This document shows positions 5,301 through 50,673 of a stretch of 64,000 bases of DNA, piece by piece. The stretch comes from Patescibacteria group bacterium (GTDB taxonomy: Bacteria > Patescibacteriota > Gracilibacteria > UBA1369): assembly GCA_963169655.1 (NCBI GenBank), contig CAUJCM010000003.1:95741-159740 (forward strand). Reading direction: 5' to 3'. The notes under the pieces were generated by a model that saw only the letters and a program-made list of their open reading frames with translations, was not told the origin of the DNA and made no database searches. The position numbers and the translations under genes are program-made. The stretch's first letter is position 1; each line of letters starts with the position of its first letter.

Positions 5301-5360
5301 ATAAATTTTTCTATTTTACCCATCCCTATCCCCCACCCACCGCAAGGGGCAGGGTAACAT
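5301..5360. repeat. Dispersed C-rich/G4-forming repeat (family A), copy 1
   Basis: ataaatttttctattttacCCATCCCTATCCCCCACCCACCgcAAGGGGCAGGGTAaCA; matches 42262..42300 and 47616..47655. Confidence 0.8.
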
Positions 5361-42261: not shown

Positions 42262-42300
42262 CCATCCCTATCCCCCACCCACCCAAGGGGCAGGGTAGCA
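42262..42300. repeat. Family A C-rich/G4 repeat, copy 2
   Basis: CCATCCCTATCCCCCACCCACCCAAGGGGCAGGGTAGCA. Confidence 0.9.
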
Positions 42301-42384: not shown

Positions 42385-45300
42385 GTGGATTCCTATAATA
42401 AAAATAAAAATATGTTATCCAATATTCACAAAAATATTAAAAGGATCTCAACTTTAATGATTCCTTTACTTTTATTAAGTTCAGTTTCACAAACTCTTGC
42501 AGCAACTATCACAGTAGATACAAATTTAGATGATGGAAGTCTTGGAAATTGTGAGCTTAGAGATGCCATTTTATCGGCAAATAATAATGTGGCTCATGAT
42601 AATTGTAATGCAGGACAAGTAGCACCCATAACAGATAAGATAGAATTTGATCCAAGTTTATCGGGTCAGACTATTACTTTAAATGGAACTCAATTACCAC
42701 AAATTACTGAATTGGTTGAAATTAATGGTGATATTGATGGGGACAATAGTCCAGATATTACAATAGATGCTAATTCAATGAGCAGAGCTTTAGATATAAA
42801 TTCTGAAAATGTAAAAGTAAACGGACTAAGTTTTCTTAATGGTGCTCAAGCTGGAGGATTAGGAGGAACTATCGCAATAAGGCAAAATTCTGTGCTTAAT
42901 TTAGCAAATAGTTCAATAAATAATTCTACAGCTCAATTTGGAGGTTCAATCGGGGCAGAAGGAGATGCCTTTCTTTATTTAAATAATGTAAATATAAATA
43001 ATAGTACTGCTACGTCATCAGGAGGTGCTATTTTTGTAGATAAAGAAGCTACTAATGACAGTCCATTTGAATCTGTAGATCTTTTCGTTCAAAATTCTAA
43101 TATTTCCAACACAAGTGCAGATAATGGAGGTGCTATTTATGTAGATGAAAATAATGAATCTGCAATTTATGATACAGTAATTGATAATGCAGAAGCTAAT
43201 CAAGATGGTGGAGGTATTTATTTTGCTCAATCTTCCAACCCTCCTACTCCTCATGCACGAGACATAGATATGACTAATCTAACTATTACTAATTCAAAAG
43301 CCAATAAAGGTGGCGCTGGAGGTAGAGGTGGAGGAATTTATTTAGGTAAAGGGTTAAATACAGTTTCGAACAGTGGTTTACATTTATCAAATAATGAGGC
43401 TGAAGAAGGAGGAAGTATTTATCTTGATGGAGATAATGTAAATAGAAGCAGTTTAAGTCTTGGTATCAACGATTATATAGGGCATTCAACAGCGGATGCG
43501 GGTGGTGGTATTTATGTAAATGGTTTTAGTCAATTAAATACAATTGGTGTCAACGGTAGCCCTATTACTTTTGAAAGTAATACAGCTTTAACAAGAGGTG
43601 GAGGAGCTCTGTATTATGCAGTTAATAGTTTGAGTTCATCAATTATCTATGTAGATTTTTTAAATAATTTGGGTTTAACTTCGCATGGAGGTGCAATCAA
43701 GACGGAAGAAGGAAATAATATTACTATCAACAACTCTAATTTTTTTCAAAATTTTGCGGCAGCTGGTGGGGCTATTGGATTGCAATCAATCAATCCGTTA
43801 CTTATTCTTAATTTGATTATTAGTGATTCTAATTTTGCAGGTAATAAAGCTACTTCATCAGGAGGTGCTATTTATTTAGAAGACAATAGCAATGTTACTT
43901 TAAATAATGTTACTACTGAAGTAGCAAATTATATTACTCCCCCACTTCCTATTAACAGTAATACAGCAAATTATAGAGGAGGGTTTTTATTAGCTAACCA
44001 CTCATCTCCTAATAGTTCTTTGAATATAAATAACTCTCAAATAAATAATAATGAAGCAGCTTCTTGTGGTGCGTTATCATTAGAATATGCAAATAACTCT
44101 ATAGTTTATCCGGTTAATATAATTAGTTCTGTCTTTACTAATAATATTGCAATTAAAGATATTTTTGGATTGTATGGTGATGGAGGAGCAATTTGTTTTG
44201 ATGGAGGTGGAATAGTAATTGATGATACTAAATTTGAAAATAACTTAGCTGATAATTTTGGGGGTGCTATTTATTCTTCAAATATTGGATATGATGTCTT
44301 AATTAATATTCTTAATGGAGTAGAATTTATTAAAAATTCAATAACATCAAAGGGAGGATTTATGCAACCAACAAAAGGTGGGAATATATATTTACGATCA
44401 GCAGTCCCACAGTCTAGTATTTTAAATTTAACTGATAGCTTTTTTGATTTGTCAGACACAATTTCTTATTATGGAGGTGGAGTTTATGGAGAAGGTAGTT
44501 CAGTTGTTATTAATATTTTAAATAGTATTTTTGACAATACTTCAGGAGGGATGGATGTTGAGAATGCTGGAGGAGTTGCAGTATACGATGAAGCAAAGGC
44601 CAATATTGATAATTCTTTATTCCAAAATTTAATTAGTAGTGCAGCTGCAGCTATTGGTGGATGGAATAGTCTAATTAATTTAAGTAATTCTATAATTAAA
44701 GATAATAATGCTATTCAAGCTGGCGGAGTTGGTATTACAGGAGAAGATGGAGTTTTCAATATTGATAATTCTACTATAATTCAAAATACTTCTACGGCTT
44801 TTGCCGGAGGAATTGGAGCTCTTGATAAAGGTACCTTGAATATTACAAATTCTTATGTTGGAGAAAATCAATCTAATTTAGGAGGAGGAATTGGAGTTGC
44901 AACAGATGCTAAATTATCATTAATTAATTCTACTATTCATAATAATTTAGCTAATAATTTTGGTGGAGGGGTTTTTTTGATGATGGCAGATATTGTTGAC
45001 ATTATTTCCTCAACTATTGCCTTTAACCACAGCAATATGGATGGTGGTGGAATATCTTATATAGACGGATTAATTGCTCCCTTTACACCAGCATCTCCAA
45101 TTAATATGCAAAATACTATTTTAGAAGGCAATACAGCTAATGGGAATGGTCCAGATTGTAAAGGGGCAACCCCATTTTCTACTAAAGGTTATAATTTATA
45201 TAGTGATTCGACTGATTGTGGAGGAGTTTTTCAACCTACTGATATTAAAGATACTTCTGCTCAACTAGGAGCATTAGGGCTTCATGGAGGTGATACCTTA

Positions 45301-47199
45301 AACTTTCCACTTTTATCAAATAGTCCAGCAATTAATACTGGAAGTACTACTGAATTAACTGATCAAAGAGGGATAGCAAGACCTCAAGGGCCTAAAGCAG
45401 ATATGGGTTCTTATGAATATGAAGATCATACTGCTCCTATTATTGCAGAAATAACTCCAGTAACCAGTCCAACGAATGACTCTACTCCAGCTTATATATT
45501 TTCTAGTGATGAAGCTGGAACTATTACTTATGGAGGCTCTTGTTCATCAGCAACAATTAATGCTCTCAATGGAAATAATAATATTAATTTTAATAGTTTG
45601 GCTCCAGGGACTTATTCAAATTGTACAATTCAAGTCACTGATGTCTTTGGAAATATTAGTAATATTATTAATGTCACCCCGTTTATAATTGTCGATAATG
45701 GTTCAGGTGGAGGAAGTAGTGGAGGAGGAGGTGGATCTCCACAATTTGGACAAGGTCCATCAGAAGGAGGAGAGCCTTTTAATCCTGTAATTGGAACTCC
45801 GGAAAACCCCTCAAGTCCTGAGTTGATTCCAGAGCAACCACCATTTACTCCAGAAACACCAGCTCCAGTCCAGCCACAAGAACCTAGAACACCAACAGAT
45901 ATTGGTGGCCCTGATTACACAGATCAACCTGAAGTAGAGGATGATTTAGAGCCTCAAATAGAAACTTTAGAAACTGAAAATATTAGAGAAACTGAAAAGC
46001 CATTTGATCTATCTCAAATTCCGCAAATTATTGAAAAACCAGAAAGTTATCAAAACTCTAGATTTTCTAATTATGGAAGCAGTTGTAATTTTCAAGAATT
46101 TAAACAAAAATATAGACTCTCAATAGAAGCAATTTGGCAAGATAGTGATGGAGATGGGTTATCAGATTACTTAGAATGTGTAGTCAATACAGATCCAACT
46201 GTTCAAGATACGGATAAAGATGGAAAAAATGACAATTATGAGCTTTTAAATATTTTTACAAATCCACTTTTAGTAGATAATTTTGATTTAAGTAAATTAG
46301 GTAACTTTGTAGTAGTGACCTTACCAGAAGAAGATTTAATAACAGCAGATGAATCACCAGTATTTTTAGGTCTTTCAAGAGCAAACAAAAATGTAAAAGT
46401 CTATCTGTTTGATTCCAATGATTTTGATATCTACAGAAATTTAATCATGGAAGCTATTTCAAAGATTGAAGATTTAACAAAAGAAGAACAAGATGATTTG
46501 TATAGTCAAAAATTTTCAAACTTAGTAGCTTGGATTCTTCAAAAATACTTAAATAATTCTTTAGATTCGGAAAATCCAGAGGAAAGCAAGTTTAAAGATA
46601 AAGTTAAATATGTAGGCCAAGCTCAAACAGATCAAAATGGAGTATTTTTATTAGATTCAGATTTAGATTTGAGAGATAATAAATATTTAGTAATAGGGGT
46701 ATCTGTTGATAGCTATTCCGAACCAATAGAATTTACTGTTGATCAATCATTAGCCTTTATGACTCCACAAGCACAAAAACTTGGAGGTTATGAAATAACT
46801 GAAGATATTTTGTCTAGAAAATCTAAAATAGAATTAGAAGAAGAAAATAATAAGCCAGTACTTTCTGGAAAAGTTATAGTACCAAGTAAAGTAGTAGCTA
46901 TTTGGAAATCTAATATTACAGGATCTGCCTTACTTACAGACTCATTAGATCAAGAATTCCGTCTAACTCCTCCAGAAGCTTTAGAAACAGGAGAACATAC
47001 AGTTTATTTAACCGCTTACAGAAATAGTGATAATGCACAAAGTAAGACCCAAAAAATCTCATTTATAATTAAAGAAAAAGAAACTCCAAGTAATTTCCCA
47101 ATATGGCCATTTATAATAGTTGGAGCGGTTATAATTACAGGAGTTGCTTATTTTGTAATAAAAAGGAAAGATAAAAAAGAAGAGGTTATAAACCAATAA
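42385..47199 (+). CDS. Giant right-handed beta-helix surface protein (CSLREA-like N-terminus, Pmp-like repeats, choice-of-anchor Q-like segment, Ig-like Cys module, TSP3-like Ca motif, C-terminal TM)
   Basis: GTG start (ATG 42412 possible); GGAIY repeats; DSDGDGLSDYLECVVNTDPTVQDTDKDGKND; WPFIIVGAVIITGVAYFVIKRKDKK. Confidence 0.88.
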   Translation: MDSYNKNKNMLSNIHKNIKRISTLMIPLLLLSSVSQTLAATITVDTNLDDGSLGNCELRDAILSANNNVAHDNCNAGQVAPITDKIEFDPSLSGQTITLNGTQLPQITELVEINGDIDGDNSPDITIDANSMSRALDINSENVKVNGLSFLNGAQAGGLGGTIAIRQNSVLNLANSSINNSTAQFGGSIGAEGDAFLYLNNVNINNSTATSSGGAIFVDKEATNDSPFESVDLFVQNSNISNTSADNGGAIYVDENNESAIYDTVIDNAEANQDGGGIYFAQSSNPPTPHARDIDMTNLTITNSKANKGGAGGRGGGIYLGKGLNTVSNSGLHLSNNEAEEGGSIYLDGDNVNRSSLSLGINDYIGHSTADAGGGIYVNGFSQLNTIGVNGSPITFESNTALTRGGGALYYAVNSLSSSIIYVDFLNNLGLTSHGGAIKTEEGNNITINNSNFFQNFAAAGGAIGLQSINPLLILNLIISDSNFAGNKATSSGGAIYLEDNSNVTLNNVTTEVANYITPPLPINSNTANYRGGFLLANHSSPNSSLNINNSQINNNEAASCGALSLEYANNSIVYPVNIISSVFTNNIAIKDIFGLYGDGGAICFDGGGIVIDDTKFENNLADNFGGAIYSSNIGYDVLINILNGVEFIKNSITSKGGFMQPTKGGNIYLRSAVPQSSILNLTDSFFDLSDTISYYGGGVYGEGSSVVINILNSIFDNTSGGMDVENAGGVAVYDEAKANIDNSLFQNLISSAAAAIGGWNSLINLSNSIIKDNNAIQAGGVGITGEDGVFNIDNSTIIQNTSTAFAGGIGALDKGTLNITNSYVGENQSNLGGGIGVATDAKLSLINSTIHNNLANNFGGGVFLMMADIVDIISSTIAFNHSNMDGGGISYIDGLIAPFTPASPINMQNTILEGNTANGNGPDCKGATPFSTKGYNLYSDSTDCGGVFQPTDIKDTSAQLGALGLHGGDTLNFPLLSNSPAINTGSTTELTDQRGIARPQGPKADMGSYEYEDHTAPIIAEITPVTSPTNDSTPAYIFSSDEAGTITYGGSCSSATINALNGNNNINFNSLAPGTYSNCTIQVTDVFGNISNIINVTPFIIVDNGSGGGSSGGGGGSPQFGQGPSEGGEPFNPVIGTPENPSSPELIPEQPPFTPETPAPVQPQEPRTPTDIGGPDYTDQPEVEDDLEPQIETLETENIRETEKPFDLSQIPQIIEKPESYQNSRFSNYGSSCNFQEFKQKYRLSIEAIWQDSDGDGLSDYLECVVNTDPTVQDTDKDGKNDNYELLNIFTNPLLVDNFDLSKLGNFVVVTLPEEDLITADESPVFLGLSRANKNVKVYLFDSNDFDIYRNLIMEAISKIEDLTKEEQDDLYSQKFSNLVAWILQKYLNNSLDSENPEESKFKDKVKYVGQAQTDQNGVFLLDSDLDLRDNKYLVIGVSVDSYSEPIEFTVDQSLAFMTPQAQKLGGYEITEDILSRKSKIELEEENNKPVLSGKVIVPSKVVAIWKSNITGSALLTDSLDQEFRLTPPEALETGEHTVYLTAYRNSDNAQSKTQKISFIIKEKETPSNFPIWPFIIVGAVIITGVAYFVIKRKDKKEEVINQ

Positions 47200-47261: not shown

Positions 47262-47441
47262 TTTATCTATTCAAGAATGGGCGACATAGCTTCAGCTCCA
47301 GATCACAAAACTCCCCCTTTCCCCTCTTGAGGGGTGTCAAATTCAAAGAATTTGACGGGGTGGACAAGGGGTGTCAGCGTAAGCTGACGGGGTGGACTTT
47401 CCCCTCTTGAGGGGTGTCAGCCAAAGGCTGACAGAGTGAAC
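47262..47441. repeat. Family B dispersed repeat cluster (three hairpin units plus upstream composite region)
   Basis: CCCCTCTTGAGGGGTGTCAAATTCaaaGAATTTGACGGGGTGGAC, GTCAGCgtaaGCTGAC, GTCAGCCaaaGGCTGAC. Confidence 0.9.
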
Positions 47442-47615: not shown

Positions 47616-47655
47616 CCATCCCAAACCCCCACCCACCCAAGGGGCAGGGTAGCAC
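47616..47655. repeat. Family A C-rich/G4 repeat, copy 3
   Basis: CCATCCCAAACCCCCACCCACCCAAGGGGCAGGGTAGCA. Confidence 0.9.
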
Positions 47656-50472: not shown

Positions 50473-50673
50473 AACTCCCCTCTTAATTGAAGTCAGTAGG
50501 TCCTTTCAGGCTAATCACTTCCCCTCTTGAGGGGTGTCAGTATAAGCTGACAGGATTGACTTTTTCAAAAAAGCAAAAAAGGATTATCTATCCAAAAGTG
50601 GGCGACATAACTTTAGCTCCGGAGCACCAAATTCCCCTCTTGAGGGGTGTCAGTATAAGCTGACAGGGTGGAC
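50473..50673. repeat. Family B dispersed repeat cluster (one degenerate and two good hairpin units)
   Basis: CCCCTCTTGAGGGGTGTCAGTataaGCTGACAGG at 50521 and 50634; upstream TTATCTATCCAAAAGTGGGCGACATAACTTTAGCTCC matches 47262 onward. Confidence 0.88.

Follow-up and report, generated by a model that had tools for sequence, protein, structure and literature searches.

The DNA analyzed here (hereafter the window) is a stretch of 64,000 nts from a Patescibacteria group bacterium, whose genome has 1,016,477 bases (1.02 Mb) in 6 contigs and is 98.7% complete. Five units of a short dispersed repeat, named family B, were found in the window, all read on the plus strand: an array of three at 47321-47441 and a pair at 50521-50673. 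Unit 1 consists of hairpin 1, CCCCTC TT GAGGGG (CCCCTCTTGAGGGG, 47321-47334), hairpin 2, GTCAAATTC-AAA-GAATTTGAC (47336-47356), and a second G-run, GGGGTGGAC (47357-47365), which was located by sequence, by the motif rule of PMC4666352 and by a motif finder. In this G-run, GGGGTG mirrors the GAGGGG arm with T opposite A, and it is a possible third strand of a triplex. Unit 2 reads AAGGGGTG-[GTCAGC GTAA GCTGAC]-GGGGTGGAC (47366-47397, hairpin 2 at 47373-47388) and has no hairpin 1; its hairpin 2 is flanked on either side by a GGGGTG run. Unit 3 has hairpin 1 (47401-47414), hairpin 2, GTCAGCC-AAA-GGCTGAC (47416-47432), and a degenerate second G-run, AGAGTGAAC (47433-47441). Units 4 and 5 share hairpin 2, GTCAGTATAAGCTGAC: unit 4 (50521-50560) has hairpin 1 at 50521-50534, hairpin 2 at 50536-50551 and a degenerate G-run, AGGATTGAC, and unit 5 (50634-50673) has hairpin 1 at 50634-50647, hairpin 2 at 50649-50664 and the G-run AGGGTGGAC. 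Hairpin 1 was assigned by exact match, hairpin 2 and the G-runs by sequence, and all the hairpins were reproduced when each unit was folded alone.

An earlier sequence-only reading had placed three tandem units at 47262-47441, each with hairpin 1 followed by hairpin 2. The three-unit array stands, at 47321-47441, but the first ~48 bases (47262-47309) belong to a different palindrome; likewise, the two-hairpin layout holds for four of the five units in the window and fails for the middle tandem unit. This other dispersed palindrome is present at 47262-47309 (plus strand) as a truncated copy, TCTATTCAAGAATGGGCGACATAGCTTCAGCTCCAGATCAC, whose core recurs at 50600-50620 and beside other genomic copies of family B. 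Its complete form is approximately TTATCTATCCAAGAATGGGCGACATAGCTTTAGCTCCGGAGCAC-ATTCTTGGATAA (as in locus L301), and it often adjoins family B (47262-47309 and 50583-50628 in the window), usually truncated at the junction. A further short repeat, CCCCCACCCACC..CAAGGGG, has three copies in the window (5330-5349, 42272-42290 and 47626-47644) and may represent another palindrome family with G/C runs. Just before the array ends the gene of a 1604-aa protein (42385-47199, plus strand) with a signal-like start, many short N/G-rich repeats and a C-terminal membrane segment.

Four of the five window units have the same hairpin 1. When up to two mismatches were allowed, it matched the window eight times (four sites, both strands), compared with 0.05 matches expected in shuffled sequences. 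Folded as single-stranded DNA, the three-unit array is more stable (-32.9 kcal/mol) than its shuffled versions, which average -18.2 kcal/mol (z = -4.9; 0 of 200 shuffles as stable). Both clusters (47.3 kb and 50.6 kb) are intergenic. Their location, together with paired variation that is compatible with an RNA function, would agree with elements that serve the host as RNA or DNA structures (terminators, mRNA stabilizers or attenuation devices), are spread by recombination, and have only an incidental link to the nuclease described below. However, orientation to genes is inconsistent: family B lies on the same strand as both neighboring genes at 47.3 kb and on the strand opposite to both at 50.6 kb. 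No terminator-like tail was found at the array, and an Rfam search of the window returned tRNAs only, with no match to the array. Moreover, relatives of this repeat, the BoxC/PIT elements, show no promoter or terminator activity (PMC4666352). We regard a host structural role as quite improbable.

Throughout the genome, exact hairpin 1 occurs 23 times, whereas the reversed-pattern control has no occurrence. A covariance model built from genomic copies, as the sequence-only reading had suggested, was trained on 25 sequences and identified 45 copies of family B in the genome at E<=0.01. In the alignment of 25 copies from this genome, 85.3% of hairpin-2 cells are paired, compared with 77.4 +/- 1.0% after shuffling, and sliding one arm lowers pairing to 36-49%. 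Five pairs of hairpin 2 show changes on both sides, while at columns 23/41, 12 of the 25 copies lack a pair (G.A in most of these) and 10 have T-A. Two subtypes can be distinguished, one with the mismatch (GGCA..TGAC) and one perfectly paired (GTCA..TGAC), and all window copies belong to the latter. Across many phyla, 85% of positions are paired in 115 distinct hairpin-2 sequences, compared with 56 +/- 2% when halves are swapped (maximum 64% in 1000 rounds). Thus, unpaired substitutions are not as common as paired ones in either test. The view of family B as a REP-like dispersed element with structure-conserving variation is supported by its copies, the covariance model and the pairing tests, and the paired variation of hairpin 2 is real. 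Selection on structure is one reading of this variation. Quasi-palindromes undergo correction by template switching, which keeps their arms complementary without selection, and such mechanical correction at replication forks would equally account for a hairpin 2 that varies freely while remaining paired. If this were the whole explanation, the elements would be inert remnants. That is very unlikely, as it leaves unexplained the conserved GGGGTGKC/GACGGGG frame, the mirror relation between the second G-run and its arm, and the linkage to a nuclease; palindrome correction can nevertheless operate alongside the explanation that we prefer, in which the repeat is mobilized.

A scan of named genomes revealed the family B frame, ATTCCCCTCC..GGAGGGGTGKC-[hairpin 2]-GACGGGGTGGTT, across phyla. 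Among the matches listed, carriers include Chryseobacterium and other Bacteroidota, Chlorobi/Ignavibacteria, Planctomycetes, Acidobacteria, Propionibacteriaceae, Rickettsiales, Deltaproteobacteria, Nomurabacteria and others. Within its own class, the canonical pattern was found in this genome only; the 352 others lack it, except for one chance-like match (genome G325) whose inner part has no paired arms. At two contig ends of this genome (the start of C2 and the end of C5), the sequence downstream of a family B copy is shared and the sequence upstream differs, the switch between the two coinciding with the element's left end, indicating duplication or rearrangement at the repeat.

REP-like repeats are known for mobilization by a Y1 transposase of the RAYT type, for which the sequence-only reading had proposed to look elsewhere in the genome. 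A PF01797 (Y1) profile search of the 98.7% complete genome gave no match. A classical REP/RAYT system whose transposase has been lost here or acts from elsewhere could still be imagined from the REP-like anatomy of the repeat and from the Y1 genes present in 27 of 39 repeat-bearing genomes, which are flanked by inverted palindromes. But these palindromes are the Y1 genes' own and differ in sequence from family B; none of 30 Y1 loci in the repeat-bearing genomes has an exact family B element within 1 kb, none of 50 has the triplex-type motif described below, and 12 of the 39 genomes have no Y1 gene. Therefore, a RAYT/Y1 partner is not supported; this alternative is already contradicted, and we consider it highly improbable. 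In the aligned copies, the GTAG tetranucleotide is not conserved on either side of the hairpins. Y1 (RAYT-like) loci with inverted palindromes of their own (L193, L200, L203, L205, L217 and L218) provide a useful positive control for REP/RAYT anatomy.

A different nuclease gene lies between copies of the repeat. The only DUF559 gene of the genome is on the same contig, 34.5 kb before the window (domain at C3:60884-61207; gene at L022:2846-3361, minus strand, 171 aa). Family B copies bracket its domain as an inverted pair: the upstream copy, 60 bp away, points the same way as the gene, and the downstream copy, 61 bp away, points the other way. This is the REP/RAYT arrangement of a nuclease gene between inverted repeat copies, with DUF559 replacing Y1. 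The 171-aa reading frame passes through the upstream element, so that approximately 17 N-terminal residues (IPLLRGGKFEEFAGVACF) are repeat-encoded unless translation starts later; similar element-encoded extensions were observed at two other loci (L238 and L240).

The association recurs in other genomes. DUF559 is present in 32 of the 39 repeat-bearing genomes; no DUF559 match was found in the other 7, and many of the 39 are incomplete MAGs. An exact element lies within 300 bp of 13 of the 30 DUF559 loci in these genomes, where 0.37 would be expected from each genome's own element density (P about 8e-21); this P value assumes uniform placement while elements cluster, and the Y1 loci are therefore the better control. 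Since the 39 genomes had been selected for holding the repeat, 21 further DUF559 loci were taken from a search of a plasmid collection with DUF559 only, and 11 of them have strong inverted flanking repeats, compared with 1 of 42 control positions. Roughly every second DUF559 locus in the repeat-bearing genomes adjoins another palindrome instead, or has none that was detected. Within the order, 3 of 89 genomes gave strong DUF559 matches, and a search of viral contigs gave no match. In a literature search that covered few subscription journals, no report linking DUF559 to palindromes, inverted repeats or transposition was found.

The partner protein matches the DUF559 profile (PF04480) with 94.5 bits against a cut-off of 20.6. 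Residues D98, F99, E109, D111, G112, H115 and D122 are invariant in 25 of 25 solo DUF559 proteins, and the catalytic-type residues among them (D98, E109, D111, H115 and D122; PD-(D/E)XK/EDxHD-type) are intact. In a structural model of a Chryseobacterium homolog (L182, pLDDT 78), the nearest folds are those of I-Bth0305I (3r3p) and 3hrl; matches below rank 3 were weak and were disregarded. Profile and modeled fold together predict a Vsr/EDxHD-like nuclease. Endonuclease activity is predicted by analogy with a Caulobacter homolog, the Vsr-like VsrA, which is responsible in vivo for an SOS/DNA-damage response (PMC12907096). V.NgoAXIII of N. gonorrhoeae, which cuts T:G in any context (PMC6116569), was not counted as evidence, its identity with the DUF559 protein being unconfirmed.

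Repeat and nuclease also tend to be inherited together. In a tree of 51 DUF559 domains, the distribution of family B carriers requires 5 changes, compared with 15.6 after shuffling (0 of 500 as few). DUF559 from this genome falls in a clade of 10 members (support 100/98) that come from several phyla and all have family B. When the tree is restricted to repeat-bearing genomes, the signal is weaker (5 changes versus 8.6 shuffled; 3 of 500, or 12 of 500 without near-duplicates).

Signs of movement were sought at orthologous sites. No clean empty site was found, either at the E. coli ycjD site or in a cross-comparison of 158 elements among loci, which yielded shared sites and no bare insertion. 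E. coli strains without ycjD had been tried as an empty site, but an efflux operon occupies it, so this is not a clean one. At one orthologous intergenic site in two Chryseobacterium genomes (L076 and L085), one genome has family B and the other a Y1-type palindrome (AGTAGCCGTGGGTGAAACCCATGG). A DUF559 gene with its palindromes is found in three Deinococcus species in one catabolic gene region, at a different junction in each; these placements fit mobility of the cassette and do not amount to an exact empty site. They also suggest that the gene itself moves, which would agree with DUF559 being a guest, that is, a homing-endonuclease-like or Vsr-like gene that inserts by or in existing palindromes that spread otherwise; the nearest solved fold, a homing endonuclease catalytic domain, points the same way. 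Against it, the type of element tracks the DUF559 lineage across phyla and no other mobilizer was seen. In addition, the pattern is missing from the 352 relatives in the class, apart from the one chance-like match, so landing sites did not exist there beforehand. We therefore consider the guest explanation unlikely, though worth keeping in mind.

DUF559 loci without family B mostly hold other palindromes that follow one shared plan: a pyrimidine arm, a loop, a purine arm, a short spacer and a G-run mirroring the purine arm, with T allowed at A. Examples are GGGAGAGAG-CTA-GAGAGAGGG in Neisseria, GGGAGAGGGG-TT-GGGGAGAGGGG in Deinococcus and GGGGGAGAT..AGAGGGGG in Sinorhizobium. In rhizobia and Brucella, the RIME and Bru-RS repeats may follow the same plan. 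A simple motif finder detected this triplex-type motif at 37 of 46 DUF559 loci, at none of 50 Y1 loci and, among control positions, at 13 of 129. When the second G-run is compared with the mirrored arm of its own element, 5.86 of 7 positions agree; with swapped arms, 5.48 +/- 0.07 do (a difference of ~5.7 SD). A direct, non-mirror third strand shows a weak excess (5.56 for the own arm versus 5.44 +/- 0.06 swapped), and the mirror rule therefore describes the G-run better. Family B could form CCCCTC / GAGGGG / GGGGTG with six triads in the copies of this genome and CCCCTCC / GGAGGGG / GGGGTGG with seven in relatives, hairpin 2 lying in the second loop. The element can adopt a two-hairpin fold and possibly also that of an intrastrand triplex.

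Taken together, we favor, with a probability of roughly 60%, the explanation that family B is a non-autonomous REP-like palindrome whose dedicated partner is a solo DUF559 nuclease, and that the two reached this lineage together by horizontal transfer. DUF559 rather than a RAYT/Y1 transposase probably disperses it; the association is observed, and from it we infer mobilization. This explanation builds on what was observed: a repeat whose hairpins pair, a second G-run that mirrors the purine arm, elements linked to the nuclease gene and inverted around it, a shared plan of the flanking palindromes, and an active site that is intact. The element would have the plan [pyrimidine arm - loop - purine arm] - [variable hairpin 2] - [second G-run mirroring the purine arm], and the DUF559 gene between inverted elements would be the autonomous copy. 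The nuclease may recognize the element once it has folded, as it might on the lagging-strand template, and cut at or near it; repair or copying of the cut DNA would then put new copies elsewhere. Several points weigh against this explanation: the lack of a clean empty site, the 7 of 39 repeat-bearing genomes with no DUF559 match, and the DUF559 loci without family B in repeat-bearing genomes (about half). Insertion of the nuclease gene next to such repeats could by itself also produce the co-location, and because DUF559 proteins are Vsr-like repair candidates as well, the gene need not be selfish.

On a broader scale, solo DUF559 nucleases and their cognate triplex-capable palindromes, including ycjD/BoxC and family B, might form a large unrecognized class of mobile elements that is neither HUH/Y1 nor DDE, occurs in many phyla and unites orphan repeat families; we offer this tentatively, at slightly short of even odds. 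DUF559 is widespread and still a domain of unknown function in Pfam, and a role as mobilizer would supply a function. BoxC/PIT and CGTC repeats, though long known, have lacked a mobilizer, and none was found by the studies devoted to them (PMC4666352, PMC3733652). Since DUF559 genes occur next to repeats of this kind in many phyla, and ycjD of E. coli K-12 is one of them, the question can be tested directly in a laboratory strain.

Among known systems, family B resembles REP/RAYT (TnpA_REP) in its short intergenic palindromes, tens of copies, tandem groups and inverted pair around a small nuclease gene. It differs in having no GTAG tag and in its nuclease, which is DUF559 (Vsr-like) and not a Y1 HUH enzyme, in a genome without Y1. 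By PF04480 profile and fold, the partner belongs to the same group as Vsr/EDxHD (I-Bth0305I), 3hrl (N. gonorrhoeae) and Caulobacter VsrA. Known roles in this group are mismatch repair and intron homing, and the searchable papers describe none of its proteins as linked to dispersed palindromes. CGTC-tagged REPs have no dedicated transposase and never flank RAYTs (PMC3733652). Family B may be related to them: its other strand has CGTC directly before the hairpin-2 stem and often CCA after it (CCCCGTC-AGCC..GGCT-GCCA). CGTC is found on the minus strand in most copies of this genome, and the GCCA tail in the GG subtype. The stems are not of the same length, and the A-T, A-T stem start is not shared throughout, two A-T pairs occurring only in the AAATTC/AAATCC subtypes, and the CGTC description includes neither hairpin 1 nor the G-runs. 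E. coli BoxC is the same as the PIT element and the intrastrand triplex motif TM_ECO (Holder et al. 2015, PMC4666352); that study found its contexts to contain no mobility gene, and a DUF559 link is absent from the text. The E. coli DUF559 gene, ycjD, has a matching motif, CCCCTCGCCCC TCTG GGGAGAGGG TTA GGGTGAGGGG, 167 bp downstream, and this downstream segment has a median of 13 matching places per genome. Family B shares with BoxC/PIT/TM_ECO the pyrimidine arm, loop, purine arm, second loop and mirror purine strand, as well as an intergenic, dispersed distribution in many bacteria, and its mirror third strand reaches the length of at least 6 bases that defines those motifs. The two part at the second loop, which is 3 nt in TM_ECO and at least 20 nt in family B, where it is itself a hairpin, while the motif definition requires both loops to be short (1-6 nt ITxF; 0-10 nt in an earlier search). 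As the search in PMC4666352 allowed second loops of 1-6 nt, family B would not be listed there. Family B, we conclude, represents a variant of the BoxC/PIT-type element class that bears an additional hairpin.
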